Origin: Bacteroidales bacterium
GTDB taxonomy: Bacteria; Bacteroidota; Bacteroidia; Bacteroidales; UBA932
Direction: 5' to 3'
Assembly (NCBI GenBank): GCA_017445755.1
Contig: JAFSSE010000025.1
Span: forward strand, 1 to 64,000
Length of the DNA: 64,000 bases
Position 1 is the stretch's first letter. Every line of letters begins with the position of its first letter. The position numbers and the translations under genes are program-made. This document shows, piece by piece, positions 35,997 through 50,888 of this stretch. The notes under the pieces are model-generated. The model did no database searches and was not told the DNA's origin. It worked only from the letters and a program-made list of their open reading frames with translations.

Positions 35997-36587
35997 ATGC
36001 AATACGACTATCGGAACATGACGTCGCGGACCCTCGTGGAACTGGCGAAGAAGGGCGACCAGACCGCCTTCCGGGCAATCTATGAACGTTTTTCCGCCCA
36101 GGTCCGGTCCCGGGTTTCCGGCTATTTTGTCTGGGTTGCGGACGTGGATGACGTGGTATCCGTGACCTTCCAGAAGTTCTTTGCCAAGCTGGATTCCTTC
36201 GATTCCTCCCGCGAAGTCCTTCCCTGGCTCATGAAAATCGCGAGCCGGACAGCCCTGGACCACCTTGACGTAATGCGCCGCGAGGATGAAAAAAAGGAGG
36301 GTCTCAAGAGCAAGGATACGGAAATGGGAGACGAGGGGAGGGATATAATCACCGATATCAATCCGGAGGATGAGATTATCAGCAACGAGGCCCATGACCG
36401 CCTTATGGCCTTCTTGAAGGAACTTCCGCCAATTTACGGGGAGGTAATGCAGAAGTACATGGTCGAAGAGCTTGAGTATGAAAAGATTGCGGAGGAGCTC
36501 GGACTCGAGCTCAACACCGTCCGGACCCGTATCCGCCGCGGGAAGGAAAAGCTGGCGGAAATGATGCAAAGGGGGGAGATTGAATAA
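35997..36587 (+). CDS. ECF-type RNA polymerase sigma factor
   Basis: 196 residues: region 2 (about 15-85, FRAIYERFSAQVRSRV and WVADVDDVVSVTFQKFF), an acidic linker, and region 4 with LPPIYGEVMQKYMVEELEYE and the helix-turn-helix AEELGLELNTVRTRIRRGKE. No anti-sigma gene is adjacent; instead it is between polA and rsmG, overlapping the latter by one base (TAATG). Conserved sigma-like proteins in housekeeping operons occur in Bacteroidales; regulon unknown. Confidence 0.88.
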   Translation: MQYDYRNMTSRTLVELAKKGDQTAFRAIYERFSAQVRSRVSGYFVWVADVDDVVSVTFQKFFAKLDSFDSSREVLPWLMKIASRTALDHLDVMRREDEKKEGLKSKDTEMGDEGRDIITDINPEDEIISNEAHDRLMAFLKELPPIYGEVMQKYMVEELEYEKIAEELGLELNTVRTRIRRGKEKLAEMMQRGEIE

Positions 36588-37237
36588 TGGACGCAGCCGC
36601 TTTCATCGCTTTTCTGCGGGAATATTTCCCGCTTTCTCCTCTCCAGGAGGAGCGTTTTGCCGCCCTGGACGGGCTCTATCGCAGCTGGAATGCGAGAATC
36701 AACGTTATTTCGAGGAAGGACATAGATTTCCTCTATGACCACCATGTCCTCCACTGCCTATCTATCGCAAGGTGGCTTTCGCTCCGGGAGGACCTTATGG
36801 ATTCATTCTCGAAGGGGACTGTCCTCGATCTTGGTACGGGTGGAGGTTTCCCTGGAATACCGCTCGCTATACTCTTCCCGGAGACCCGTTTTACCCTCTG
36901 TGACTCAGTCGGAAAGAAGACCCTTGTCGCCTCGGAAGTCGCCTCGGCGCTCGGACTCGATAATGTCGAGGTTGTCAACGCCCGGGCAGAGTCCCTCGGC
37001 AGGCGTTTCGATTTTGTGGTCTCACGCGCCGTCGCCTCCCTTACCGACTTCTATCCATGGGTCAAGGGGACCTACTCTAAGGCAATCCTTTATCTTAAAG
37101 GCGGGGATATAAACGAAGAGATTGCCGCCTTGATGGCCCGGTACCGCCTGAATAAGGGTTCTGTTTCTACATGGCCCCTTTCAAGCTGGCTTTCGGATCC
37201 ATACTACGACGGCAAACTGCTATTGTCAATAGAGTAG
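36587..37237 (+). CDS. rsmG: 16S rRNA (guanine527-N7)-methyltransferase
   Basis: 216 residues. GidB-type methyltransferase with SAM loop LDLGTGGGFPGIPLAILFP (about 82-100), NVISRKDIDFLYDHHVLHCL and VSRAVA motifs. Makes m7G527 in 16S rRNA. Translationally coupled to the sigma gene; followed by the palindromic element at 37260. Confidence 0.95.
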   Translation: MDAAAFIAFLREYFPLSPLQEERFAALDGLYRSWNARINVISRKDIDFLYDHHVLHCLSIARWLSLREDLMDSFSKGTVLDLGTGGGFPGIPLAILFPETRFTLCDSVGKKTLVASEVASALGLDNVEVVNARAESLGRRFDFVVSRAVASLTDFYPWVKGTYSKAILYLKGGDINEEIAALMARYRLNKGSVSTWPLSSWLSDPYYDGKLLLSIE

Positions 37238-37259: not shown

Positions 37260-37378
37260 AAAAATTACCAGCATCACTTTCATCGCCTGTGCCACCCTCG
37301 GCATCATAAGAGGGAGGGGCCCTTTAGGGAGGGGTCGCCCGCAGGGCGACGGCAGTGAAAGTGATGCTGGTAATTTTT
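37260..37378. mobile_element. Palindromic element, copy 1 (MITE- or REP-like)
   Basis: 119 bp with perfect 23-bp terminal inverted repeats (37260-37282 and 37356-37378; outer part AAAAATTACCAGCAT). The interior holds a perfect 7-bp hairpin GTCGCCC-GCA-GGGCGAC (37334-37350) and CCCTTTAGGG. It is nearly identical to the element at 49880-50000. No transposase is encoded. It sits between convergent rsmG and tpiA, where it could also serve as a bidirectional terminator (A-run and T-run at its ends). Confidence 0.8.
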
Positions 37379-37388
37379 GTGCCTTTTC

Positions 37389-38144
37389 CTAGAAGCTGAG
37401 GGCGATCTGGATGAAGTCGTCCGCCTTGAGGGCGGCGCCGCCGATCAGACCTCCGTCAATATCCTTCTGGGCGAAGAGTTCCTTTGCGTTGGAGGGCTTG
37501 CAGCTTCCTCCGTAAAGGATAGTGGTGTCTTCTGCGACCTCCGCACCGAACTTGTCGGCGAGGACCTTGCGGATGCAGGCGTGGATTTCCTCGGCCTGCT
37601 CAGCGGTCGCGGTCTTTCCGGTACCGATAGCCCAGACGGGTTCATAAGCGATGATTATACTCTTCATTTCCTCGGCGGAAAGGGTATAGAGGACCGCCTT
37701 GGTCTGGTTGGTAACGACCTCGAAGTGCTTTCCCGCTTCGCGCTCGTCAAGGTTCTCGCCTACGCAGAGGATAACCTTGAGCCCTGCCTCGAGGGCGAGT
37801 TTCGTCTTTACGACGAGCTTCTCGTCGGTCTCTCCGTAGTACTGGCGGCGCTCGGAGTGGCCGAGGATTGTATACTGGCAGCCGGCATCGGTCAGCATGT
37901 TCACAGCGACCTCTCCGGTGTATGCACCCTTCTCATGATCGGCGCAGTTCTGGGCGGAAAGTCCGACCTTCGAGCCGGCGAGCGCCTCGGCGACGGGAAC
38001 GAGGTGGGTAAAGGGAGGGGCGACCACGAGGCCAACTCCAGCGGGAACTTCAACGGATTTTGCGGCAACCGCCTTTGCGAGGGCGACACCTTCGGAAACG
38101 GTGGTATTCATCTTCCAGTTTCCGGCAACGATTTTCTTTCTCAT
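37389..38144 (-). CDS. tpiA: Triosephosphate isomerase
   Basis: 251 residues. [13 protein letters not shown] start (substrate Asn/Lys), electrophilic His in TILGHSERR, catalytic Glu in [15 protein letters not shown] (with flexible loop 6), and the phosphate-binding YGGS. Glycolysis/gluconeogenesis, cytosolic. Its promoter box overlaps the end of the GH28 gene. Confidence 0.97.
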
Positions 38145-38175
38145 TTTATCAGTAGAGGTTTAAATTTTCGGAAGG

Positions 38176-38183
38176 CAAAGATA
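38176..38183 (-). promoter_or_regulatory. -7 box of tpiA promoter
   Basis: Minus-strand TATCTTTG, about 30 bases before the tpiA ATG. Confidence 0.6.
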
Positions 38184-38187
38184 CGGA

Positions 38188-39582
38188 TTAAAAAGTTCCG
38201 AAGAAAGAATTTTCTATGGAAATCGAGCTGAAGGCATCGATGTCTGTCGCCTTTCCGGTATAGTAGAAGCGGCTGCCGGTAATGGTAACGTCCTTTACAC
38301 AGGAGAGTCCTTCGATTCCGACGCTCCTCACCCCGGTCCTGGTCCCGTGGCAGATGACGTTTGAAATCCGGATGTCCTGGAAATCAGGGGCGTATTCCAT
38401 CTTCTTCGGACCGTCCCCGACCTTTCCGGTGTAACCCCTGTCGACATAGGTACACTCGAAGATGACCGCTTCATCCTTGATATCGTTCATCACGATGTCG
38501 CTGATCCGGATATTCTCCGTCCTGCCGCCCCTGCCGATTCCGCTTTTGAACCGGAGTCCGGTATCGGTTCCGGAGAAGGTGCAGCGGCGTACCACGATAT
38601 TCTTCATGCCGCCGCTGACGTCGGACCCGATGACGAATCCGCCATGGGCATGGAAGACAGTATTGTCCTGGATAAGAATGTCTTCGCAGGGACCCTGGCT
38701 GACTCCGGAGGCCCCGGACCCGCCCTTCATGCAGATTCCGTCGTCCCCGGCATCCACAATGCACTTAGAGATCAGCACCCGCCGGCAATTGCTGATATCA
38801 ATTGCGTCTCCGTTCTGGGCGTTCCAGGGGCAGCGTACCGTCACCCCTTCGATGACTACGTCGGTGCAGCGTGTGGGATGGACATGGAAACGGGGTGAAT
38901 TCTGGGCTGTGATGCCTTCGATGAGGACTCTCTCGCAGTCGGTGAAACGGATTAGGTCCGCACGCGTGGCCTCCTGTTTTTCAGGAGTTTCTGCTATGTC
39001 GGCGCGTCCGTTGAGGCCAAAGGGGAACCAGAGGGAGCCGTCTTCGCTGACGGTCCCGCCCATGGACAGGAACGCCTTCCACTCCACATCGCTGACCTTG
39101 CCCCGTTTTACGGGCCTCCACTGGGCTCCGTTACCGTCGATGGTGCCTTCGCCGACAATTGCTACGTCGTGGGCCTTCGAGGCGTTGAAGAGCGGCTGGA
39201 CGCGGCCGGAGCGTTCTGTATCCTTTTCCTTGTAGTGGGAGTTTTTGTCTTCAGTCCCGATTACAAGCGCGTTCCGTTCGAGTCGGATTGCGATATTGCT
39301 TTTGAGGGTTACTGGGCCGGTCATGTAGACGCCCTGGGGGACGATGAGCGTTCCGCCTCCGGCTTTTGTAAGGGCGGAAATCGCCTTACGGAAGGGTTCC
39401 GTATTGAGGGTTATTCCATCCCCGTTCCCGCCATAGTCGAGCAGGGATACCGTTTTCCCTGGAATATTTACGGGAGCGGGTTGTTCCATGGTGCCTTCAA
39501 GACCGGCGTACCGGTCGGAATAATCCTGGGCCGAAGCGGAAACTGCGGCGAAAAGTGCTGCCGCAAGGAGTGTTTTTCTCAT
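38188..39582 (-). CDS. Glycoside hydrolase family 28 (polygalacturonase-like)
   Basis: 464 residues with a signal peptide (1-19, SASAQD). Right-handed beta-helix of GH28, with the catalytic set recognisable: NGD at 257-259 (NTD in fungal enzymes), Asp280-Asp281 in DAGDDG, AHGG at 312-315 (GHG) and RFK at 345-347 (RIK). Probably a periplasmic or surface pectin-degrading exo- or endo-enzyme. No SusCD pair or other pectinase is adjacent, so it is not within a visible polysaccharide utilisation locus. Confidence 0.88.
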   Translation of the reverse strand: MRKTLLAAALFAAVSASAQDYSDRYAGLEGTMEQPAPVNIPGKTVSLLDYGGNGDGITLNTEPFRKAISALTKAGGGTLIVPQGVYMTGPVTLKSNIAIRLERNALVIGTEDKNSHYKEKDTERSGRVQPLFNASKAHDVAIVGEGTIDGNGAQWRPVKRGKVSDVEWKAFLSMGGTVSEDGSLWFPFGLNGRADIAETPEKQEATRADLIRFTDCERVLIEGITAQNSPRFHVHPTRCTDVVIEGVTVRCPWNAQNGDAIDISNCRRVLISKCIVDAGDDGICMKGGSGASGVSQGPCEDILIQDNTVFHAHGGFVIGSDVSGGMKNIVVRRCTFSGTDTGLRFKSGIGRGGRTENIRISDIVMNDIKDEAVIFECTYVDRGYTGKVGDGPKKMEYAPDFQDIRISNVICHGTRTGVRSVGIEGLSCVKDVTITGSRFYYTGKATDIDAFSSISIENSFFGTF

Positions 39583-39695
39583 AATCCGTTGTTTTAACTG
39601 TGCAATTATACATAAATTATTCCTAAATTTGTATTTATTGAAAAATAAAGCAATTATTTAAGCAGTTACTTATTTTTACATAACGGTTTCAATTG

Positions 39696-40985
39696 ATGAA
39701 GAATTTTGTAGAAGAGTTAAGGTGGAGAGGCATGATCCAGGATATCATGCCCGGAACGGAAGAAAAACTCATGGAAGGCCCCCAGGCCGCCTATGTCGGC
39801 ATTGACCCGACAGCTGATTCACTGCATATAGGTCACTTGGTAAGTGTTATGATTCTCAAGCACTTCCAGAGCTGCGGCCACAAGCCGTTCGCCCTTGTCG
39901 GCGGAGCTACCGGCATGGTTGGTGACCCCTCGATGAAGTCCGCCGAGCGGAACCTCCTCGACGAGGAAACCCTCGCCCACAATATTGCCGGAATCAAGGC
40001 CCAGCTCGGCCGTTTCCTGGATTTCGACAGCAACGCCCCGAACAAGGCCGAACTGGTCAACAACTACGACTGGATGAAGGATTATTCATTCATCAATTTC
40101 ATCCGCGATATCGGAAAGCACATCACCGTGAACTATATGATGGCAAAGGACTCCGTCAAAAAGCGCCTTTCCCGCGATTCATCCGAGGGAATGTCCTTTA
40201 CGGAATTCAGCTATCAGCTGATGCAGGGATATGATTTCTACTGGTTATGGAAGAACCGCGGATGCATCCTTCAGCTCGGCGGAAGCGACCAGTGGGGGAA
40301 CATAACGACTGGAACCGAGCTGATCCGGAGGATGGACGGTGGAGAGGCCTATGCCCTGACCTGCCCTCTGATCAAGAAATCCGACGGTACGAAGTTCGGA
40401 AAGACCGAGAAGGGTAACATCTGGCTCGATCCGGAGCGGACTTCGCCGTATGAGTTCTACCAGTTCTGGCTGAATGTGGCGGATGACGATGCCGAACGCT
40501 ATATCCGGATCTTTACCATGCTTTCCCGCGAGGAAGTCGAGTCCCTGATTGCCGAGCACCGCGAGGACCCCGGCCAGAGGAAGCTCCAGAAGGTTCTTGC
40601 CCGGGAAGTTACGCTCATGTGCCATGGCGAAAAGGAGTATGAAAACGCCCTCGAGGCCTCGAAGATGCTCTTCGGGAATTCTACCTCCGAAGCCCTCCGG
40701 AAACTCGATGAGAAGACCTTCCTCGCCGTTTTCAGCGGGGTTCCTACCTTCAATGTCCCGAAGGAGGATCTGCCCTGCAATATCCTCGATTTCCTTGCCG
40801 TCAAGACCGCGGTCTTCCCTTCGAAGGGAGAGGCACGCAAAATGCTCCAGGGCGGGGGAGTCAGCATCAACAAGGATAAGGTGACCGGCCTAGAGCGGGA
40901 GATTTCCACGGATGACATCATTGACGGAAAGTATATCCTCGCCCAGAAAGGAAAGAAGAACTACTTTATAATCAACGTGATATAA
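39696..40985 (+). CDS. tyrS: Tyrosyl-tRNA synthetase
   Basis: 429 residues from ATG 39696 (a TTG directly upstream is not needed). Class I motifs: HIGH in LHIGHLVSV and KFGKTEKGN for [15 protein letters not shown] binds tyrosine; C-terminal S4 RNA-binding domain (about 360-425). First gene of tyrS-rbfA-permease-peptidase-symporter; its TAA overlaps the rbfA start (TAATG). Confidence 0.97.
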
Positions 40986-41332
40986 TGGATAAACCAGCCA
41001 GTACAAGAATGCTGAAAGTGGGGCGGGAACTCCAGAAGGATCTCGCCGAGATTTTGCGGAGGAAGGGTATGGCCTTCTTCGGCGGTGCCATGGTGACTGT
41101 CAGCGAGGTGCGGGTCAGCCCCGACCTCTCCGTCGCCCGGGTTTATGTCAGCGTTTTCCCCTCCGACCGTCAGCAGGCGGTCATGGCCATCCTCGAAGAA
41201 AACATCCGGGTAATCCGCGGAGAGCTCGGCCGGGAAGTCCGTTCCCAGCTCAGAATCGTCCCGGAGCTCGTTTTTGCCCTCGACACTTCCCTTGATTACG
41301 CAGAGCATATCGATGAGCTCTTGAAAAAATAA
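40985..41332 (+). CDS. rbfA: Ribosome-binding factor A
   Basis: 115 residues, KH-like fold; ILRRKGMAFFGGAMVTVSEV and SPDLSVARVYVSVF match the family, with the closing FALDTSLDYAEHIDELL. Needed for 30S maturation at 16S rRNA helix 1. Overlaps tyrS by one base. Confidence 0.95.
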   Translation: MDKPASTRMLKVGRELQKDLAEILRRKGMAFFGGAMVTVSEVRVSPDLSVARVYVSVFPSDRQQAVMAILEENIRVIRGELGREVRSQLRIVPELVFALDTSLDYAEHIDELLKK

Positions 41333-41346
41333 GGGGGGGCTGACCT

Positions 41347-42561
41347 ATGAATCTTCCGTTCTTCTTTGCCCGCCGCTACCTCTTCGCCCGGAAATCCCAT
41401 GGTGTCATCAACATCATTTCGGGAGTCGGCGTCGTCGGCATGGCAATCGGAACGGCAGCCCTGGTGGTCATCCTCTCCGTATTCAACGGATTCAACCGCC
41501 TCGTAGCGGATACCCTCGGGGATATCGAGCCGGATATCCGCGTTTCAGCCCGTTACGGGAAATTTTTCGAGCCGGACAGCGTCGCCTTCGACCTTGCGTA
41601 CAGGGACGACAGGGTCCTTAACATGACTTCGGTCCTCGAGGAAAATGTCTTCCTTTCCTACGACGGGAAGGAGGCCATTGCGAAGGCGCGGGGAGTCGAT
41701 GAAGTTTATGAGGAAGAGTCCCCGCTTCGGGATCATATTGTTGACGGGACTTTCACCCTTCGTTTCGGGGAAGTCAAAAAGGCGGTCCTCGGGACTGTCC
41801 TTGCGAGGGGTCTCGGGGTTTCTACCCGCTTTTCGACCCCTCTCGAGATTTATTATCCGGACAGGGGTGGGAAGATATCCCTGTCGAATCCGGCTGCTTC
41901 CCTGCGGAGCATTCGCGTAAGCCCCTCCGGAATCGTTTCCCTCAATGCCAATTACGACGGCGATCTTGTGGTGCTGCCCCTTGAAAGCATGAGGGATCTT
42001 CTTGGCTGCGAAAGCGAGGTTTCGGCCGTTGAGATACGCCTTGTAGAGGGCTCTACCCAGAAGGATGTCAAAGATCTTATTAAAGGGCTTTCCGAGGCCC
42101 TCGGGAGCGATTTCAGGGTTGAGGACCGGTACCACCAGAATTTGACTCTCTACAAGATGATGCGGTACGAAAAGCTTGCGATTTACCTTATCCTGATTTT
42201 CGTTGTAATCATCATTGGATTCAATATTTTCAGCGCCCTGACGATGCTACTTATCGAAAAGGAGGGCGATATCCGAACCCTCGGAGGGCTCGGAGCTCCG
42301 GCCCCCCTTATCCGGAGAATATTCGTCCTGGAGGGCTGGCTTACCTCTTTGACAGGACTTGCAATCGGGCTTGCCGCCGGCGTTGCCATAGTGCTTCTGC
42401 AGCAGAAGACGGGTTTTGTCAGGATGCCGGGCAATTTCCTAGTCAGCTCATATCCCGTTGAACTCAAGGTCACGGACCTTCTCTGGACTGCTTTCGGAGT
42501 TGCCCTTGCGGGCTATCTGATGGCCATTTTACCGACAATTAATAAAAACCGTAACATATGA
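41347..42561 (+). CDS. FtsX-like ABC transporter permease (LolC/LolE type)
   Basis: 404 residues: N-terminal helix (about 23-46, GVGVVGMAIGTAALVVIL), a MacB-like periplasmic domain, and three C-terminal helices (about 280-400) with the FtsX signature LTMLLIEKEGDIRTLGGLGA. Likely part of the system that releases lipoproteins from the inner membrane; the LolD ATPase is not in the window. Overlaps the next gene by ATGA. Confidence 0.88.
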   Translation: MNLPFFFARRYLFARKSHGVINIISGVGVVGMAIGTAALVVILSVFNGFNRLVADTLGDIEPDIRVSARYGKFFEPDSVAFDLAYRDDRVLNMTSVLEENVFLSYDGKEAIAKARGVDEVYEEESPLRDHIVDGTFTLRFGEVKKAVLGTVLARGLGVSTRFSTPLEIYYPDRGGKISLSNPAASLRSIRVSPSGIVSLNANYDGDLVVLPLESMRDLLGCESEVSAVEIRLVEGSTQKDVKDLIKGLSEALGSDFRVEDRYHQNLTLYKMMRYEKLAIYLILIFVVIIIGFNIFSALTMLLIEKEGDIRTLGGLGAPAPLIRRIFVLEGWLTSLTGLAIGLAAGVAIVLLQQKTGFVRMPGNFLVSSYPVELKVTDLLWTAFGVALAGYLMAILPTINKNRNI

Positions 42562-44012
42562 AAAGGACTGTACTTACCCTCCTTGCGGCGGCGATGACCC
42601 TTTCCCTTGCCGCGCAGAATGCGGGCGGCCTTTCCGCCGACCTTCTTTCCGAAATCAGCAAGGGCTACGCCGGGACCGCTGCCGACAGGGCTCTCCGGAA
42701 CGCCCTCAATGTCACCCCGATCAACACCCTCGCCCAGAACGCCGGGAACCAGGCCATGATCGACACCCACTTCTCCAATGAGGTCAAGATCAAGGGCCAC
42801 ACGGACCAGAAATCCTCCGGCCGATGCTGGCTGTTTACCGGTCTCAATGTGCTGAGGGCCAAGGCGATATCCGAGCATAACCTCGGGACTTTCACCTTCT
42901 CCCAGAACTATGTCTTCTTCTATGACCAGCTCGAGAAGGCCAATCTCTTCCTCCAGGGGATCATCGATACCAGGGCCAAGGAGGACGGTGACCGCGAAGT
43001 TGACTGGCTCTTCTCCAACCCCATCGGTGACGGAGGCCAGTTTACGGGCGTTTCCAACCTTGTGATGAAGTACGGGCTCGTGCCCTCCGAGGTCATGCCT
43101 GAAACCTTCTGCTCCAACAACACATCCCAGATGAGGGCCCAGATTTCGACCAAACTCCGGGAAGACGGACTCCGCCTCCGGGAGGCCTACCGGTCCATGA
43201 TGACCGCCGACAAGGGCAAGCAGTACCGCAACGGCTCGAAAAAGAATGCCCAGAAGGATGAACTCGCCGTTTCGAAGCTCCAGCAGATGAAGGTGGAGCA
43301 GCTTAAGGAAATCTACCATATCCTCGCCCTCTGCCTCGGAGTTCCTCCGACGGAGTTCGAATGGACCCGTTACAATGACAAGGGTGAATTCGTATCCACG
43401 AAGACCTATACTCCGAAGTCCTTCTATGAGGAATTTGTCGGAAAGGATCTCGAGGGCGGCTATGTCATGGTCATGAACGACCCCTGCCGCGAGTACTTCA
43501 AGACCTATGAGATCCAATATGACCGCCACGTTTATGACGGGGACAACTGGGTCTATCTCAACCTCCCGATAGAGAGGATCAAGGAGATGGCCATCGCTTC
43601 GATCAAGGACAACACCGCGATGTACTTCTCCTGCGACGTCGGAAAGTTCTTCGACCGCCAGAAAGGGGTCCTCGACCTTGCGAACTTCAACTACGGCGAC
43701 CTTATGGGCGTAAACTTCGGCATGAACAAGCAGGAGCGCGTCCAAACCCACGCCAGCGGCTCCTCCCACGCCATGACCCTTATCGCCGTTGACCTGAAGG
43801 ACGGAAAACCCGTCAAGTGGATGGTCGAGAACAGCTGGGGCGCTTCGAGCGGCTACAACGGAAATCTCATTATGACCGACGAGTGGTTCAACGAGTACAT
43901 GTTCCGCCTTGTAGTGGAGAAGAAATACGTTCCCGCTGACCTTCTCTCCCTCCTCAATCAGGAACCGACCCTCCTCCCGGCCTGGGATCCGATGTTCCTC
44001 CCTGAAGAATAA
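42558..44012 (+). CDS. Exported C1-family aminopeptidase C (bleomycin hydrolase-like)
   Basis: 484 residues with a signal peptide (1-19, LAAQN). Papain-fold catalytic Cys in QKSSGRCWLFTGLN, His in SHAMTLIAVD and Asn in MVENSWGASSGYNG. The family is normally cytosolic and hexameric; a signal peptide places it in the periplasm. The C-terminus, which in PepC trims specificity, extends to LPEE. Seven bases before an amino-acid symporter, suggesting peptide breakdown followed by amino-acid uptake. Confidence 0.9.
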   Translation: MKRTVLTLLAAAMTLSLAAQNAGGLSADLLSEISKGYAGTAADRALRNALNVTPINTLAQNAGNQAMIDTHFSNEVKIKGHTDQKSSGRCWLFTGLNVLRAKAISEHNLGTFTFSQNYVFFYDQLEKANLFLQGIIDTRAKEDGDREVDWLFSNPIGDGGQFTGVSNLVMKYGLVPSEVMPETFCSNNTSQMRAQISTKLREDGLRLREAYRSMMTADKGKQYRNGSKKNAQKDELAVSKLQQMKVEQLKEIYHILALCLGVPPTEFEWTRYNDKGEFVSTKTYTPKSFYEEFVGKDLEGGYVMVMNDPCREYFKTYEIQYDRHVYDGDNWVYLNLPIERIKEMAIASIKDNTAMYFSCDVGKFFDRQKGVLDLANFNYGDLMGVNFGMNKQERVQTHASGSSHAMTLIAVDLKDGKPVKWMVENSWGASSGYNGNLIMTDEWFNEYMFRLVVEKKYVPADLLSLLNQEPTLLPAWDPMFLPEE

Positions 44013-44018
44013 CGCTTT

Positions 44019-45410
44019 ATGGAAACCTTTCTCGCCTCGGTCACAGACGGCCTGTGGACCTATCTCCTGATTGCGGCCCTGCTCCTCTGCGGTTTTTTCT
44101 TTACATGGAAGACCCGCTTTGTGCAGTTCCGCATGATTCCTCACATGTTCCGTCTTCTGACGGACTCCGGTGCCCGGACTGAAAAAGGCGAGAAACACGT
44201 TTCCTCCTTCCAGGCCTTCGCTGTCTCCCTTGCCAGCCGGGTCGGCTCCGGAAACCTTGCCGGCGTTGCCACGGCGATTGCAATCGGAGGCCCCGGCTCC
44301 GTATTCTGGATGTGGGTGACCGCCCTTCTCGGCGCCGCCACCGCCTTTATCGAATCGACCCTCGCCCAGCTCTTCAAGGAGCGCAGCGAGGGTGCCTTCG
44401 TGGGCGGCCCCGCATATTATATCCGGAAGGGCCTCCACAGCAAGGGACTGGCCGCGACCTTTGCGGTCCTGATTACGATTACCTTCGCCCTCATGAACAA
44501 TGCGGTCCAGGCGAATACGATTTCAGGGGCCCTGGACGAGGCCTTCGGTGTCCGGCCATGGATCAGCGGCGCGCTCATGGCGGCCCTTACCCTTCTTATC
44601 ATCTTCGGCGGCATCCACAGGATTGCGCGTTTTTCCAGCGTCATTGTTCCCCTTATGGCCATAGGATACATGATCCTCGCCATTTTCATCGTCGTCAAGA
44701 ACTACGCCCTCATTCCGGACGTATTCCGGATTATTTTCGAGGACGCTTTCGGTATCCGCCAGGTTGCCGGCGGCGGCATCGGGGGAGTGATCATGCTCGG
44801 AGTAAGGCGCGGCCTTTTCAGCAACGAGGCGGGTGAGGGTTCGACCCCGAACGCGGCCGCTACCGCGAATGTCTCCCACCCGGTGAAGCAGGGTCTTATC
44901 CAGGCCCTCGGCGTCTTCACCGATACCCTTCTCGTCTGCTCCTGTACGGCCTTCATCATCCTTATAAGCGGACTCTACACTTCCGGATCGAACGGAATAG
45001 CCCTTACCCAGGTCGCCCTCCAGGCGGAAATCGGCCCCACCGGCCCGATCTTCATCGCCATCGCCATCTTCCTTTTCGCCTACAGTACGATTATCGCCAA
45101 CTATTACTACGGCGAAGCGAATATGATTTATCTGAAGTCCGGGAAGAAGGGGATAGCCCTCCTCAGAGTGCTCTCCGGCGGCGTTTTTGTGGTCTTTGGG
45201 GCTCTCGCGGGGCTGAATCTTGTATGGACGCTCATAGACTTTTTTATGGCCCTCCTTACCATATGCAACCTTATCGGGCTTATCGGGCTATGGAAGTACC
45301 CGGTAAAGCTCCTGAAGGACTACGAGAAGCAGAAAAAACAGGGGAAGGACCCTGTCTTTCACAAGAGTACCCTCCCCGAGATTGCAGACGAGCTGGTCTG
45401 GCCGGATTAG
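44019..45410 (+). CDS. Alanine/glycine:cation symporter (AGCS family)
   Basis: 463 residues, about eleven membrane helices. Family motifs: FAVSLASRVGSGNLAGVATA, GGPAYYIRKGL, and RRGLFSNEAGEGSTPNAAAT. Imports alanine or glycine with sodium or protons. Last gene of the tyrS operon; its TAG overlaps the TAA of the convergent lipoprotein gene by four bases. Confidence 0.94.
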   Translation: METFLASVTDGLWTYLLIAALLLCGFFFTWKTRFVQFRMIPHMFRLLTDSGARTEKGEKHVSSFQAFAVSLASRVGSGNLAGVATAIAIGGPGSVFWMWVTALLGAATAFIESTLAQLFKERSEGAFVGGPAYYIRKGLHSKGLAATFAVLITITFALMNNAVQANTISGALDEAFGVRPWISGALMAALTLLIIFGGIHRIARFSSVIVPLMAIGYMILAIFIVVKNYALIPDVFRIIFEDAFGIRQVAGGGIGGVIMLGVRRGLFSNEAGEGSTPNAAATANVSHPVKQGLIQALGVFTDTLLVCSCTAFIILISGLYTSGSNGIALTQVALQAEIGPTGPIFIAIAIFLFAYSTIIANYYYGEANMIYLKSGKKGIALLRVLSGGVFVVFGALAGLNLVWTLIDFFMALLTICNLIGLIGLWKYPVKLLKDYEKQKKQGKDPVFHKSTLPEIADELVWPD

Positions 45411-45820
45411 TTCAGCATTTTGACGACGGCGGCGATACGGTCCGAGGAGGACCAGAGCCACACCGTCCCGTCTTCCGAAATCTTTTCCGCCTTGAAGGTG
45501 ATTCCGTCATGCTTCTGGATGGAGTTGTTCTCCGTCCATTCCATGCTGGCATTTACCGTTTTTCCCGATACAATGGCATCGGACAGGTTCAGGATGACAT
45601 ATTCGCTCATGTCGTCATTCCCCATCCGGAACTGGTGGAGGGTGGCGTTGTAGCCCGCCTGGTGGAAGTCCTCGTCGAAGGTGAAGACGAGCCGGTCCTT
45701 TATTTTAAGGCAGAGCGTTTCGCTTTGAAGAAGGGCTGAATCCATCTCTGCGACATGGGCGCAGGAAGTCAGTCCGCCGAGGATGGCCACTCCGAGTATA
45801 AGTTTTATGATTCTTTTCAT
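45407..45820 (-). CDS. Small lipoprotein of unknown function
   Basis: 137 residues with a lipoprotein signal (lipobox LTSC, Cys19) and a beta-rich mature part ending WLWSSSDRIAAVVKML. No family recognised. Its ATG overlaps the M6 protease stop (ATGA), so the two are co-expressed and the lipoprotein may be an accessory or inhibitor of the protease (inference). Confidence 0.75.
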   Translation of the reverse strand: MKRIIKLILGVAILGGLTSCAHVAEMDSALLQSETLCLKIKDRLVFTFDEDFHQAGYNATLHQFRMGNDDMSEYVILNLSDAIVSGKTVNASMEWTENNSIQKHDGITFKAEKISEDGTVWLWSSSDRIAAVVKMLN

Positions 45821-48012
45821 TTTACAGTAAGCTTACGGATGATAATGTCCTTTGAACCGTCCTTATAGGAGATTTCCGCCTTTAGGACGCCGCTTTTTTC
45901 AGGGTGCCAGTACCCGTCTTTCCCTACGGTAATCTTTTCCCCGTCAAAGCGCCATACAATGCCCTCAGCCTCGGTTGCATTGCATACCCTGAGGGGGATG
46001 GTCGTATTGGCGACGAAGGCGGTTCCGGATTTCTTTGCGGTCGAAAGAATTATGTACGGGTAGGTATCGGAGTAAGCGGATCTTGTCGTGAACTTGCAGC
46101 TGGTATCGACATTTCCCTTTACAGAACCGGCCTTGAAATAGATTTCTGCGCTATAGGCGGTCCGGGGGGTAAGTCCCTCCATTACAAAGGCGTATTTCCC
46201 TGGCTCATAGGGAGAAACCGTGTATTCCGTGGTCTTCCCGTCGATTGTGAAGGAGATGAATCCTTCACCATCGTAGGTTTCGTCGGATGAGGACCAGGTG
46301 ATGATTGCGGCATCCTGGAAGGTGACCTGGGTCCCATAGATCACATCCGGCGCTTTCTCTCCGGTAGCCCCTTCCACTACGAGTACGACACTGTTGCCGT
46401 CTTTTGTGATGGAAACGATTGACAGGGGGGCTTCCTTCCCGCTCCAGAACACGAAGGGAGGATTGCTGGTCGCGGTAAACTGGGTATGTCCCTTCTGAGG
46501 CCAGAAGACCTTGCTCCGGTTGTTGTAGGTCTGCTGGGCGGTGTCATGGCCTGCACTCGGATCCGCCTCCACGAGGTCCGCGCACTGGTGGTCCGGCCGG
46601 GCATTGGCCTCGTTGTAGGTGAACCACCTGTCGTAAGCGGTAAGGTTTTTCTGGTAACTTTCTGACATTCCGGTTCTCCGGTCAGATTTGTCAATATGGT
46701 AAATCAGGAGGCCGCTGCCGCCGATATACGTGTCCCAGCCGGTATTGTACCGGCACTCGAGCAGGTAGTATTCCCCGTCGTAGTCCCCGCTTACCTTGAA
46801 ACACTTTCCGCCGAGGTGGACGGGCTCCAGGGTATGGGTTCCCGGGGTCAGTTCTGTAACGTCGGCAATATCCAGTTCCACACGCTCGAGGGCGGAATAG
46901 TAGGGCGGGGTATAGCCGTCGTTGTTCATGTTTCCGCCGTCCATCAGGTCAAGCGAGTACCAGAGAGCTTCCGCGGTTCCTCCGCTGAGGGCATAGTCCG
47001 TGTCGTAAAAATCGGGAAGATCGAAGGTATGGGTGTATTCATGACAGAAGGTGCCGATGGAAGCCATGGTGTATTTCAAACTCCCTTCATAGCGCCCCAT
47101 AAGCTCTGAAGAGCAGGCGTAGCGGTCAATCCTCTTGCCGTCCAGGATGAGCTTGATCTGCGCGGTGCCCGTATATATATAGTACGCGTGGGACCAGATG
47201 CAGTCGGCGTTGTTGTCGGCGTCGTCCGCCTCGTCCTTTCCGGCGAAGAAGATGAATACGTTGTCGACCTCACCGTCCCCGTCGTCGTCATAGAGCGAGA
47301 AATCCACCTCGCTGTCTGCGAGTTCGCAGGCCTCTTTCACCATTTCCTCCGGATGCATGTCCATGTCGTCGCTGCCGTTCTTCCCGTAATAGGCCATGTT
47401 CTTCGAGACTGTAACCGGACCGGCGACGGTGAACTTGAAGTCATAGCGCCCGTTGAACTGGTCGTTGAAATAGGCGATGGCGCTTTTGGAGGATTTTTCG
47501 TTGAGGAGTTTGTCAAAGTCCGCCTGGGGGGTCTCGGAGGAGAATTTTACGTCTGCGAACTGGGCCAGGATGACAATTCCGTGACGTTCCATGGAACCTT
47601 CCGCCTTTGTCATTACAGGATGGGCCGCATGGATCCTCCGCTCAAGGTTCTCCCTCCCGTCGAAATTGATGGGCTGGCGCGCCTTGCGGGAATTTCGCGC
47701 AATGAGCTCAAGGGGAATGTTCCTGCTCCCGGAAAGGATTTCAGCGGGAACATCCTCATCCCCAACGCGGTAGGACGTCCCATAGCGGAAGCCCTGGGCG
47801 TCGAAGGCGCCGTATCTCCAGTATCCGTCCTCGCCCTTGACAATGGCGCATCCGTCGAGGGTAGTAACCAGTTTCATGAAGGCGTTGCCCCTTACCTGGG
47901 CCATGAAGGTCGTCCCGTCCGGCTGGGTAAAAACCTGGTATTCCCTCTTTGGCTGAATAGCAAAGAGAGAGAGGGAGAGGAATGAAAGTATGATGATGAG
48001 TCTTGTTCTCAT
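45817..48012 (-). CDS. M6-family secreted metalloprotease
   Basis: 731 residues from ATG 48012; an in-frame ATG at 48045 lies inside the promoter box (48050-48043). Signal peptide (MRTRLIIILSFLSLSLFA), propeptide, then the M6 (immune inhibitor A-like) catalytic domain with FCHEYTHTFDLPDFYD (HExxH and downstream Asp) and a calcium-like loop YDDDGDGEVDN. One fibronectin III-like domain and a C-terminal beta domain follow. Secreted endoprotease. Confidence 0.9.
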   Translation of the reverse strand: MRTRLIIILSFLSLSLFAIQPKREYQVFTQPDGTTFMAQVRGNAFMKLVTTLDGCAIVKGEDGYWRYGAFDAQGFRYGTSYRVGDEDVPAEILSGSRNIPLELIARNSRKARQPINFDGRENLERRIHAAHPVMTKAEGSMERHGIVILAQFADVKFSSETPQADFDKLLNEKSSKSAIAYFNDQFNGRYDFKFTVAGPVTVSKNMAYYGKNGSDDMDMHPEEMVKEACELADSEVDFSLYDDDGDGEVDNVFIFFAGKDEADDADNNADCIWSHAYYIYTGTAQIKLILDGKRIDRYACSSELMGRYEGSLKYTMASIGTFCHEYTHTFDLPDFYDTDYALSGGTAEALWYSLDLMDGGNMNNDGYTPPYYSALERVELDIADVTELTPGTHTLEPVHLGGKCFKVSGDYDGEYYLLECRYNTGWDTYIGGSGLLIYHIDKSDRRTGMSESYQKNLTAYDRWFTYNEANARPDHQCADLVEADPSAGHDTAQQTYNNRSKVFWPQKGHTQFTATSNPPFVFWSGKEAPLSIVSITKDGNSVVLVVEGATGEKAPDVIYGTQVTFQDAAIITWSSSDETYDGEGFISFTIDGKTTEYTVSPYEPGKYAFVMEGLTPRTAYSAEIYFKAGSVKGNVDTSCKFTTRSAYSDTYPYIILSTAKKSGTAFVANTTIPLRVCNATEAEGIVWRFDGEKITVGKDGYWHPEKSGVLKAEISYKDGSKDIIIRKLTVK

Positions 48013-48042
48013 GAAGGTTTGGTTTAATTGCTCTATTGAAAA

Positions 48043-48050
48043 CAAAAGTA
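48043..48050 (-). promoter_or_regulatory. -7 box of M6 protease operon
   Basis: Minus-strand TACTTTTG with TTG 20 bases upstream; it sets the start at 48012. Confidence 0.5.
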
Positions 48051-48194
48051 GGAAGAAAAACTCAATAAAGCAATAAGCCGGCCCGAAAGAACTCCAGACC
48101 GACTTATAGACGTGTACTAAAACCTAAACCTGTCTTATAGATGCACCCAAAAACCGAAACGTTGCAGAAAAAATGAAAAAAAATTAACTTTTTT

Positions 48195-48233
48195 CGAAAA
48201 AAAATAAAAAGCGGCCACATTTTCTGTAGCCGC
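48195..48233 (-). terminator. Terminator of the H1-like gene
   Basis: Minus strand GCGGC/GCCGC stem with extra ACA/TGT pairs, then a long T-rich tract (48210-48195). The rest of 48051-48257 shows no gene. Confidence 0.8.
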
Positions 48234-48257
48234 GAGATTTTTTCTTTGAAACTGGAA

Positions 48258-48431
48258 TTACTTCGATGCTTCGACGGAAACCTTGCGGAACTCCTTGAAA
48301 TCCTTCATGAGTTCGAGGGCGGCCTTACGGGCACGGGCACCGGCGGCCTTGTTTCCTTTGACGAGCTGCTTTTCAGCATTCTCAGCGTAAACAGCAAATT
48401 CAGCTGCGATTTTCTCTACGAGCTTTTTCAT
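48258..48431 (-). CDS. Histone H1-like small basic protein
   Basis: 57 residues, MKKLVEKIAAEFAVYAENAE and then a central GNKAAGARARKAALEL and FKEFRKVSVEASK. This is the Bacteroidota histone H1-like (Hc1) small protein, helical and Lys/Ala-rich, presumed nucleoid-associated. Own terminator downstream; poly-T tract upstream (48490-48545) separates it from pth. Confidence 0.85.
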   Translation of the reverse strand: MKKLVEKIAAEFAVYAENAEKQLVKGNKAAGARARKAALELMKDFKEFRKVSVEASK

Positions 48432-48541
48432 GATTTTGGGTTTTTTAAAGTTGTTGTTAGTAACGTTGTTAATTCATTTTGCGGCTGCAATTTATGGAAA
48501 AAACCAAAAAAAAACAAAAAAAACGCCAAAAAATTAACTAT

Positions 48542-49132
48542 TTATATATCAGCGTTTTTTTCTTCCTTTTTACGGGTGTTCAGTCCGTTCATTGCCTTTT
48601 CCGGCCCTGCAGTGGCGTAGATGCGGATTCCTTCGATGACCCTGTCGCAGATTTCAGGCATTTGTTTAAGTTCATCCTCCGAAAGATCGCCCAGCACAAA
48701 ATCAATCTGACCTCCCCTTGAAAAATCGTTACCGATGCCTATCCGGATCCGGGTGTACCGGTCAGTCCCGAGAAGATCGATGATGTTCCTCAGTCCGTTG
48801 TGCCCGCCGTCGCTTCCCCCGAGGCGCATACGGATCATTCCGAACGGGAGATTCAGGTCGTCGCACACGACAATGAGGTTTTCTACGCCCATGTGCAGCT
48901 TATCCAACCAGTACCGGACGGCGTTGCCGCTGAGGTTCATGTAGGTCGAGGGTTTCAGCAGATGGAACTTCCTTCCCTTGAAGGAGACCTCAGCCATGTC
49001 GCCGTACCTTCCGGTAAGAAAAAAGGTATCGGATGCCTTTGCCCAGGCATCCAATACCATAAATCCCATATTGTGACGGGTGGAGGCGTATTCGGCTCCG
49101 ATATTCCCGAGCCCGACGACAAGATAGTCCAT
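48542..49132 (-). CDS. pth: Peptidyl-tRNA hydrolase
   Basis: 196 residues. DYLVVGLGNIGAEYASTRHNMG contains the family Asn and the catalytic His20; KPSTYMNLSG and DDLNLPFGMIRMR follow. Frees tRNA from drop-off peptidyl-tRNA. Co-transcribed with rplY, 21 bases downstream, a common pairing. Confidence 0.96.
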   Translation of the reverse strand: MDYLVVGLGNIGAEYASTRHNMGFMVLDAWAKASDTFFLTGRYGDMAEVSFKGRKFHLLKPSTYMNLSGNAVRYWLDKLHMGVENLIVVCDDLNLPFGMIRMRLGGSDGGHNGLRNIIDLLGTDRYTRIRIGIGNDFSRGGQIDFVLGDLSEDELKQMPEICDRVIEGIRIYATAGPEKAMNGLNTRKKEEKNADI

Positions 49133-49153
49133 AAGCCCGTCGCAAAAAGGTTA

Positions 49154-49741
49154 TTACTCAGCAGCTTCCGAGGCCTCTGCAGCGTTCGCCTGCGAGGCAC
49201 GGGTGGACTTGACGGAGCAGATGATAGACGTCTTCGGCGAGAGGATGGTGATGTTCTCGTATGCGAGGTCGCCAACGGTCAGCCGCTTGTCGAGGCCGAG
49301 CGGGGTCACATCAACGTCAAGCTTGTCGGGAAGGTTCTCCATGAGGGCGCTGACGCGGACCTTGCGGAGGTTGGCAGTGAATTTACCACCGGCCTGAACT
49401 CCCTTCGGATGACCGAAGATATTGAGGGGAACATTGATTGCAATCGGCTTCTTCTCGTCTACTGCGAGGAAGTCCACGTGGAGGCACTCGTCGCTTACCG
49501 GGTGGAACTGAAGCTCGTGAAGGATGGCATAATAGGTCTTCCCTCCGAGGTTGAGGTCGATAATGTAGGAAGCGGGGGTGTCAGTTACACCCTTGAGGTC
49601 CCTTGCGCTGACTGTAAATAGGACGTTGTCCATGCCGAGTCCGTAGAGGTTGCACGGAACAAGGCCCTGACGGCGGAAGGCCTTGATAACGGCCTTGTTG
49701 CCTTTCTCGCGGATCTCTCCGCTGAGCTGAAAATGTTTCAT
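49154..49741 (-). CDS. rplY: 50S ribosomal protein bL25, Ctc form
   Basis: 195 residues: 5S rRNA-binding bL25 domain (1-90) and the Ctc-type C-terminal domain, with an Ala/Glu tail after 180. Binds the 5S rRNA E-loop. Followed by pth; preceded by a structured leader. Confidence 0.94.
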   Translation of the reverse strand: MKHFQLSGEIREKGNKAVIKAFRRQGLVPCNLYGLGMDNVLFTVSARDLKGVTDTPASYIIDLNLGGKTYYAILHELQFHPVSDECLHVDFLAVDEKKPIAINVPLNIFGHPKGVQAGGKFTANLRKVRVSALMENLPDKLDVDVTPLGLDKRLTVGDLAYENITILSPKTSIICSVKSTRASQANAAEASEAAE

Positions 49742-49824
49742 TGTACTTAATTTAAATGTGTTACTCAGTCCGGAAATTCACCGGACCCCATTGCACCAAA
49801 AGCGTCTGCCGCTTTTAAAGCGGC
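49742..49824 (-). promoter_or_regulatory. Structured leader of rplY
   Basis: The roughly 80-base leader holds two perfect hairpins: GCCGCTT/AAGCGGC (49808-49824) at its very 5' end and GTCCGG/CCGGAC (49768-49786). A role in rplY autoregulation or mRNA stability is inference. Confidence 0.4.
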
Positions 49825-49826
49825 GG

Positions 49827-49834
49827 CAAATATA
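49827..49834 (-). promoter_or_regulatory. -7 box of rplY promoter
   Basis: Minus-strand TATATTTG; TTTC stands at the -33 spacing. Confidence 0.55.
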
Positions 49835-49879
49835 GGAATATTTTTCTGAAAATGAAAATTTTACCCCCTGTGGCGCCTT

Positions 49880-50000
49880 AAAAAATTACCAGCATAACTT
49901 TCATCGCCTGTGCCACCCTCGGCATCATAAGAGGGAGGGGCCCTTTAGGGAGGGGCCGCCCACAGGGCGACGGCAGGGAAAGTTATGCTGGTAATTTTTT
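49880..50000. mobile_element. Palindromic element, copy 2
   Basis: 121 bp with perfect 23-bp terminal inverted repeats (49880-49902 and 49978-50000). The interior matches copy 1 except for three or four bases. Compared with copy 1, one terminal-repeat position changes on both arms together (C to A on the left, G to T on the right), so pairing is kept. Its right end overlaps the end of xerD, which terminates inside it. Confidence 0.8.
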
Positions 50001-50888
50001 TAGCTGTTTCCGGGGGTGATGGTCCAGAATGGATTTCTGCCAGACGGAGGAATCGATGTGAGTGTAGATTTCGGTGGTCAGGATGCTCTTGTGGCCAAGC
50101 ATTTCCTGGACTACGCGAAGGTCGGCGCCGTTTTCAACGAGGTGGGTCGCGAAGGAATGCCGGAAGGTGTGAGGGGAAATCTCCTTGTGGATACCGGCGG
50201 CCATCGCCTGCTTTTTAACAAGGTTGAAAACCGAGACCCTGGAAAGCGGCTTTCCGTCCTTGCTGAGAAACAGAAAATCCTCATATTCCGGCCCCGCAGG
50301 TATCCTCAGGCCGTTTTCCAGATAGTTCTTTATGGCTTCCGAAGCGACGTCTCCGAGGGGGACCAGCCGCTGTTTGTTCCCCTTTCCGATTACGGTCAGG
50401 AAGCCGTCGTTGAAATAGATGTCGGAGATTTTCAGGGAAGCCGCCTCGGAGACCCGGAGCCCGCAGCCGTAGAGGGTTTCGAGAAGGGCCCTGTCCCGGA
50501 GCCCGCAACGGGACTTGAGGTCCACAGAGTCCATGATCGCCCCGATTTCCTCGATCGAAAGTACTGAGGGAAGGTATCTTCCGATTTTCGGGGCGTCCAG
50601 CTTGTCGCAGGGATTGTCCTTCCTTTCCCCCTCCATGACGGCCCATTTGAAAAAAGACTTCAGGGAGCTGACAAGACGCGCCTGGCTCCGCTCCGAAATC
50701 CCTTCGTCCGAGCGCTTCCCGAGATAGTCCACTATGTCATCGACAGTTACTTCCGCGATGGCTTTATCCTCAACGCTCTGAAGGAAACGTTCCAAATCAG
50801 AAGAATAGGATGCCACCGTAGAAGGTGACATCCCGCGTTCGTATCCCAGGTAGTACCGGTAGTCCTTGATCAGGCGGGCGGTATCCAT
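49983..50888 (-). CDS. xerD: XerD-type tyrosine recombinase
   Basis: 301 residues. N-terminal SAM-like core-binding domain (1-90) and catalytic domain with the full set Arg145, Lys169, His240, Arg243, His266 and Tyr275 (EIYTHID). Length and lack of extensions fit a chromosome-dimer resolvase rather than an element integrase. Its last codons (KKLPA, stop) lie in the right terminal repeat of the palindromic element. Three bases after the M49 peptidase start region. Confidence 0.92.
   Translation of the reverse strand: MDTARLIKDYRYYLGYERGMSPSTVASYSSDLERFLQSVEDKAIAEVTVDDIVDYLGKRSDEGISERSQARLVSSLKSFFKWAVMEGERKDNPCDKLDAPKIGRYLPSVLSIEEIGAIMDSVDLKSRCGLRDRALLETLYGCGLRVSEAASLKISDIYFNDGFLTVIGKGNKQRLVPLGDVASEAIKNYLENGLRIPAGPEYEDFLFLSKDGKPLSRVSVFNLVKKQAMAAGIHKEISPHTFRHSFATHLVENGADLRVVQEMLGHKSILTTEIYTHIDSSVWQKSILDHHPRKQLKKLPA

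Follow-up and report, generated by a model that had tools for sequence, protein, structure and literature searches.

Protein-coding palindromes have been described mainly for Rickettsia and Wolbachia (PMC2229807, PMC10969869; these and the other papers cited here are quoted from excerpts). Rickettsia palindromic elements (RPEs) measure 105–146 or about 150 bp, carry terminal inverted repeats, form long stem-loops and occur both between genes and in frame within conserved genes (PMC2229807, PMC10969869). They encode a conserved peptide (PMC10969869) and are said to lose the identity of their repeats over time (PMC6649704), while the Wolbachia palindromic repeats and M. jannaschii are represented in these sources by the titles of references (PMC2229807, PMC10969869). 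Here, we analysed a 64,000-nucleotide stretch of a Bacteroidales genome (contig JAFSSE010000025.1, positions 1 to 64,000; hereafter the window), which carries two near-identical palindromic elements of about 120 bp. They belong to a real, large, structured family of elements from an uncultured gut Bacteroidales group that also occur in frame within genes. Its copies are dispersed, some sites are empty, insertions in genes keep the frame, the fold is common to the copies, the arms are specific to each copy yet matched, the cores lie in two orientations and wobble pairs are biased towards one strand of the core. We consider this family to be non-autonomous and mobile and to work like RPEs, between genes and in frame inside genes, with a probability of roughly 0.7.

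The likeness to RPEs, which is drawn from descriptions and not from RPE sequences, lies in the size, the palindromic form with terminal inverted repeats and a long stem-loop, and the in-frame insertion into unrelated conserved protein genes. In contrast to RPEs, the Bacteroidales element belongs to a different phylum, has a core with a covarying pseudoknot and carries arms that differ from copy to copy while remaining matched. Also, RPEs encode a conserved peptide, whereas the Bacteroidales core is read in several frames. Our search of open-licence papers found no earlier description of in-frame elements of this kind from Bacteroidales.

A first-pass annotation of the window had allowed that only two copies might exist, which is not the case: with up to three mismatches, the core motif is found at 16 places in the window genome (reversed control, 0) and 24 in genome G016, and is present in 61 of 101 sampled genomes of the genus. 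With a covariance model trained on 70 copies, we obtained 20 matches in the window genome and, with up to 36 candidates scored per genome, at least 1,179 matches in 85 of the 101 genomes, the other 16 having none. Spread across the whole order was rejected, as a strict pattern (up to two mismatches) matched none of 392 other genomes of the order, two of them from the same genus, and the model found few matches outside the genus (149 genomes searched; five matches within a single sister-genus genome and one match in a genome from a different family). Carriage by phages was rejected as well, since no viral contig contained the exact core pattern (one pattern), and an exact arm pattern searched in genome contigs gave no matches. 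A known RNA was likewise rejected: in Rfam scans of 12 element loci, run to an E value of 10, the element had no match at or above the gathering score, and the scan of the window returned tRNAs only, with no family at either copy. The counts below refer, unless stated otherwise, to 138 copies of about 100–240 bp, obtained as pattern hits with up to four mismatches and enough flank after removal of duplicates (loci L045–L193). Many of the G016 copies (L064–L084) adjoin longer shared repeats, their left flanks being ~73–97% alike over 158–848 bases. The flanks of L099 (G036:C15) and L118 (G089:C8) are 99.6–100% identical across genomes treated as different species, which reflects either recent transfer or a mis-binned contig.

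More than half of the copies (72 of 138) lie in frames that run through the element without a stop and include 450 or more nucleotides outside it, on either strand, and in these copies the core is read in five frames, which cover both strands. Read in frame, the insert would add some 40–58 residues, and several inserts lie between annotated domains; Pfam domains were found in 12 of 16 scanned element-bearing open reading frames (ORFs). Host genes include polA, RNase R and dihydrofolate reductase (DHFR), the DHFR copy being in the window's own genome. Other hosts we take to be RsmF, a YgiQ-like protein, an MtaB-like radical SAM protein and an FAD-dependent protein, and further ones are presumably RlmI-like, TruA-like, PG_1098-like and two TldD/PmbA-type genes. 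The RlmI-like host contains two core matches, one of them degraded, and in L119 (G089:C9) each of two adjacent TldD/PmbA-type genes bears an in-frame copy. The polA insert (304–357) and the MtaB-like insert (163–218) fall between domains, and the RNase R insert (537–582) falls inside one, with the alignment to the solved structure 8cdu interrupted between residues 535 and 589. In 44 of 45 in-gene comparisons between species, the length differed by a multiple of three (these, like the 27 site pairs and 30 shared-site pairs below, are not independent), and the same held in four of four comparisons with element-less sites (two copies against two such sites). The core frame that is closed by a conserved TAA is stop-free in three of 110 copies and is used by none of the 72 in-gene copies. 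Judging from these length steps and from the unused TAA frame, translation seems far likelier than splicing or bypassing. Together, the open frames, the conserved hosts and the steps of three suggest that the family consists of translated, RPE-like coding palindromes and not simply of terminators.

The copies share a common fold, composed of a long arm helix (P1), a hairpin (H0) with a pseudoknotting loop, and two further helices (H2 and H3). This was evaluated in an alignment, A1, comprising 70 of 91 rows passing filters on arm score (≥18) and length, drawn from the 138 copies. The structure pairs 92.2% of cells, while shuffles reach 72.2% and slid partners no more than 49.4%; the percentage for P1 is biased upward because rows were filtered on arm score, a filter that did not select on H0, the pseudoknot, H2 or H3. 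Cells with changes on both sides of a pair numbered 540, against 171 in shuffles, and none of 500 shuffles was as high, in agreement with the first-pass proposal that pairing is kept while the arm sequence changes. Pairs changing on both sides were found in the arm (16 of 17) as well as in H0 (2 of 4), H2 (4 of 7) and H3 (2 of 4). The pseudoknot is invariant within the 70 rows; in distant copies, GCCCGT and ACGGG replace ACCCTC and GAGGG. When fetched loci were searched with a pattern in which CCC and GGG are fixed and two positions are free, the free positions were complementary in all 186 distinct hits (TC/GA in 177, GT/AC in eight and GC/GC in one). One copy of the GT/AC type, L350 (G000:C44:73983–74100), lies ~10 kb past the end of the window. 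Three copies (L046, L048 and L051, at G000:C13, C26 and C40) have in helix H2 a module of ~110 nt that is 97–100% alike between them; that it might be a separate repeat was rejected, since its three full-length matches in the window genome all lie within element copies.

While the core is nearly constant over the genus, the arms vary between copies. The two arms of the same copy aligned with a score of at least 16 in 127 of 138 cases, compared with four of 300 when left and right arms of different copies were crossed. Read from the alignment, the arms share a loose pattern within species groups, and thus look homologous and diverging and not random. Mean core similarity is 0.83 within genomes and 0.70 between them. 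Across 27 site pairs, changes were double and paired in 164 and one-sided in 33 of 459 cells, counts in which L121/L142 is misregistered and nine pairs have no computable flank identity on either side; in the closer clade formed by G089, G082 and G008 (ten pairs, without L121/L142), 20 changes were one-sided and 23 double and paired.

The imperfect pairs in the arms are not symmetric between strands. Among the 20 inner arm pairs of each of 133 copies, read on the core strand, we counted 65 G-T against 19 A-C, and after collapsing within genomes 48 against 19, with 16 genomes showing the bias, three the opposite and one a tie. The ratio was 10:5 for host genes on the core strand, 21:5 for those on the other strand and 34:9 elsewhere, the host direction being that of the longest open frame, which is wrong for some loci (L093, L089). 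As the G-T excess does not depend on the direction of the host gene, it suggests a form in which the core strand is single-stranded, either RNA or single-stranded DNA (ssDNA), although a strand-specific mutation bias is a possible source of it.

Element-less sites, which the first-pass annotation had proposed to look for, do exist. Compared with L136, the L115 site lacks the core and also both arms, and on the basis of this one site we rejected an insertion of the core into pre-existing terminator hairpins; the xer-rplY spacer is without the core in L311, L312, L318 and L320. For copy 1 of the window, such a site was not found, as similarity stops with tpiA in all 11 loci compared. Some occupied sites are common to different species. 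Among 30 shared-site pairs with flanks matching on both sides, the core has the same orientation in 18 and the opposite one in 12. For six of the 12, flank alignments on both sides come to within 41 bases of the nominal element, those of the other six being looser, and about six genes account for all 12 flips. In different species, the PG_1098-like gene bears copies at nearly the same position (L059, L157, L168, L188), the one in L059 being of a different subfamily and in the opposite core orientation. When L145 was aligned to reversed L089, the alignment continued through both arms and only the core was inverted. The flipped cores represent either inversion of the core between the arms or two hits on one spot.

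These flips bear on the rival that survives best, in which the arms are matched by a DNA process (recombination, conversion or template switching between arms) and inversion by the same route flips the core. Besides the flipped cores, the L145–L089 alignment and the surplus of double over one-sided changes in the 27 site pairs speak in its favour. On the other hand, a symmetric DNA process is not expected to make G-T commoner than A-C on the core strand, one-sided and double changes are alike in the closer clade, covariation extends to H0, H2, H3 and the pseudoknot, and the flipped cores could have arisen by separate insertions into a single hot spot. Hence, we regard arm exchange as possible but on balance doubtful as the source of the matching. 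The first-pass annotation had named both selection on the folded form and conversion between arms: the wobble bias favours the former, and the cores in two orientations add weight to the latter. For an RPE-like mobile family, we propose that the element would spread in a folded single-stranded form, ssDNA or RNA, which an enzyme encoded by the host would recognise, and that selection on this form would keep the arms paired; exchange between arms would perhaps help the matching, and would also flip the core.

A second rival, a structured RNA or 3'-end element (a terminator, mRNA stabiliser or protein-binding site) that benefits the host and is spread and kept for that function, is best considered at the two window copies. 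Copy 1 (37260..37378, + strand) lies where two genes converge: the 3' end of rsmG (gidB), a methyltransferase gene (36587..37237, +), is 22 bases ahead of it, and that of the triosephosphate isomerase gene tpiA (37389..38144, −) is 10 bases beyond it. Its P1 arms (37260..37282 and 37356..37378, +) are complementary at 23 of 23 bases. On the same strand, read from the sequence, hairpin H0 (GCC-ACCCTC-GGC, 37291..37302) is a helix that covaries in the family. Sequence and family evidence together place the GAGGG that pairs as a pseudoknot with the H0 loop CCCTC (37295–37299) at 37310..37314 and the short form of H2 (CCC-TTTA-GGG) at 37320..37329. H3 (TCGCCC-GCA-GGGCGA, 37335..37349) is taken from the fold of copy 1 and family covariation. 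Folded as ssDNA, copy 1 scores z −8.66 against shuffles, and none of 200 shuffles folded equally well. Copy 2 (49880..50000, +) lies at the 3' end of a XerC/D-type integrase gene (49983..50888, −; 301 amino acids, C-terminus QLKKLPA*) and upstream of a ribosomal protein L25/TL5-type gene (49154..49741, −), which is thus downstream of the copy. Its arms (49880..49902 and 49978..50000, +), read from the sequence, also match at 23 of 23 bases. The integrase overlaps the copy and has its stop in the right arm, and 25 of 29 relatives examined terminate at residues 293–297 (of 301).

Much of what the first-pass annotation had claimed for these copies holds. They are near-identical (96% over 122 bases) palindromes with perfect 23-bp inverted repeats; the compensatory change is real, C37275–G37363 in copy 1 corresponding to A49896–T49984 in copy 2, with T49984 within the integrase stop codon (TAA, minus strand); and no transposase is encoded, neither copy being long enough for one, and the copies are dispersed. 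Their placement right after gene 3' ends is correct for copy 1, between convergent 3' ends, and needs correcting for copy 2, which overlaps the integrase 3' end. The in-frame insertions in conserved genes, the pseudoknotted core and the genus-wide copy-specific arms had been missed.

The position of the window copies at gene 3' ends, with runs of A/T at the bases of the arms of both, suits a host function, and arms of the window subfamily, with their A/T runs, may act as a terminator. The near-invariant core over the genus and the sites occupied in different species could be added to this. However, the 72 copies in long open frames on either strand, the lack of an intrinsic terminator around either window copy (in a scan limited to loops of 3–8), the lack of an Rfam match and the 16 genomes without a model match make this function an unlikely explanation of the family. 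As regards the choice that had been left between a mobile element and an RNA or terminator family, the non-autonomous dispersed element is favoured and a general terminator family is not supported. Finally, removal of in-gene copies from the RNA in the manner of an intron, or their skipping by ribosomes with no extra peptide, might account for a strong fold within polA, RNase R and other conserved genes, and a constant core flanked by arms particular to each copy would be suitable as a signal for splicing or hopping, but neither lengths in multiples of three nor avoidance of the TAA frame would be needed if the copies were skipped, and we hold it to be very improbable.

The likeness of the element to known hairpin repeats offers a candidate for the recognising enzyme. 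Repetitive extragenic palindromic (REP) elements and REPINs are moved by REP-associated tyrosine transposases (RAYTs) of the Y1 (HUH) type. REPs are 20–40 bp long and carry a GTAG or CGTC tag at one end (PMC3733652). Like these, the Bacteroidales element is a short hairpin element without an ORF of its own, shows a one-strand constraint on its fold and is associated across the genus with RAYT-like Y1 genes: it is present in 75 of 78 genomes with a Y1 transposase match, compared with 10 of 23 without (20 listed and three inferred by subtraction), and the median number of model matches is 12.5 with the gene and 0 without. The Y1 protein of the window genome (314 amino acids) is RAYT-like and scores above the Pfam Y1 cut-off. 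Unlike REPs as described, the element is longer than 20–40 bp, is often in genes and has copy-specific arms, and it stands beside a Y1 gene in only one of 26 regions. Spread driven by a reverse transcriptase was rejected, the element being present in 27 of 32 genomes with such a gene and 58 of 69 without (p = 1); G000 and G016 have no match to a reverse transcriptase family. We name a RAYT-like Y1 transposase as the recognising enzyme only tentatively, at somewhat below even odds. A fuller scheme, in which such a transposase moves folded ssDNA, the pseudoknotted core is exchanged or flipped between re-matching arms and peptides are added and rewritten by inversion, is speculative and would rather be doubted than believed. 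Other palindromes occur near Y1 genes as well: L203 (G089:C20) has arms of 33–37 nt around CAACCTTCGGAGA, and L208 (G005:C18) has four hairpins of the TCCTCGGCGCAAAAGGA type.

Several observations weigh against an RPE-like mobile family or against parts of it. Regarding translation, four of the 16 scanned ORFs have no Pfam match (L115, L117, L125, L170), some of the 72 open frames are probably antisense, and the alignment of polA to a solved polymerase crosses the insert without a clear break. Regarding the fold, the covariation that the first-pass annotation had asked about is clear in the double-change cells, and two of the five measures computed are weak: pairs changing on both sides number 24 against 21.9 in shuffles, with 16 of 500 shuffles reaching 24, and further pair types number 72 against 71.4, with 249 of 500 reaching 72. 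The wobble bias is absent from the window genome taken alone (4 versus 5) and milder over whole arms (131 versus 74). For 12 of the 18 shared-site pairs compared, each core is closer to its best other same-genome copy than to its counterpart at the site, a comparison biased toward same-genome fit because it takes the best of several; going by sequence similarity, this fit points to possible core replacement or re-insertion. Comparison across species delimits neither the exact ends of the element nor a target duplication. Concerning the mobiliser, the Y1 association is computed without correction for kinship or completeness, the window-genome protein reaches 28.7 bits against an NCBIfam RAYT cut-off of 80, and the single model match among 26 Y1-gene regions is in L217 (1500–1624; G122:C74), a copy of the GC/GC pseudoknot type 93 bases past a Y1 ORF of 359 amino acids. 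Moreover, the palindromes near the Y1 genes of L203 and L208 look as if those transposases served other repeats.

Other palindromic repeats resemble the element less. Porphyromonas gingivalis belongs to the same order as the hosts of the element. Its miniature inverted-repeat transposable elements (MITEs) are non-coding by definition (PMC5771137), and are set apart from our family by that excerpted description and not by sequence. ERIC, YPAL, Correia and RUP are MITE-like palindromes, some of them with open frames (PMC2229807), which the element resembles in size, palindromic form and non-autonomous spread; the difference is that its ends vary by copy and its constant part is the centre. In nematomorph mitochondria, inverted repeats occur in protein genes and their arms seem to be actively kept matched (PMC6649704), as in our family, whereas the excerpt makes no mention of a shared core. 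Magnusiomyces mitochondria also have inverted repeats inside protein genes, but there the palindromes are bypassed and untranslated, while the Bacteroidales copies keep the frame.

In annotating genomes, one may easily mistake the inserts in polA, RNase R or DHFR for errors or new domains. The many natural variants make it possible to study the movement of such elements, the tolerance of proteins to them, and whether the arms are matched by selection or by arm exchange. A family with about a thousand copies in the sampled genomes of a gut Bacteroidales group, with covarying arms, a pseudoknotted core and both core orientations, would show that coding palindromes occur more widely.

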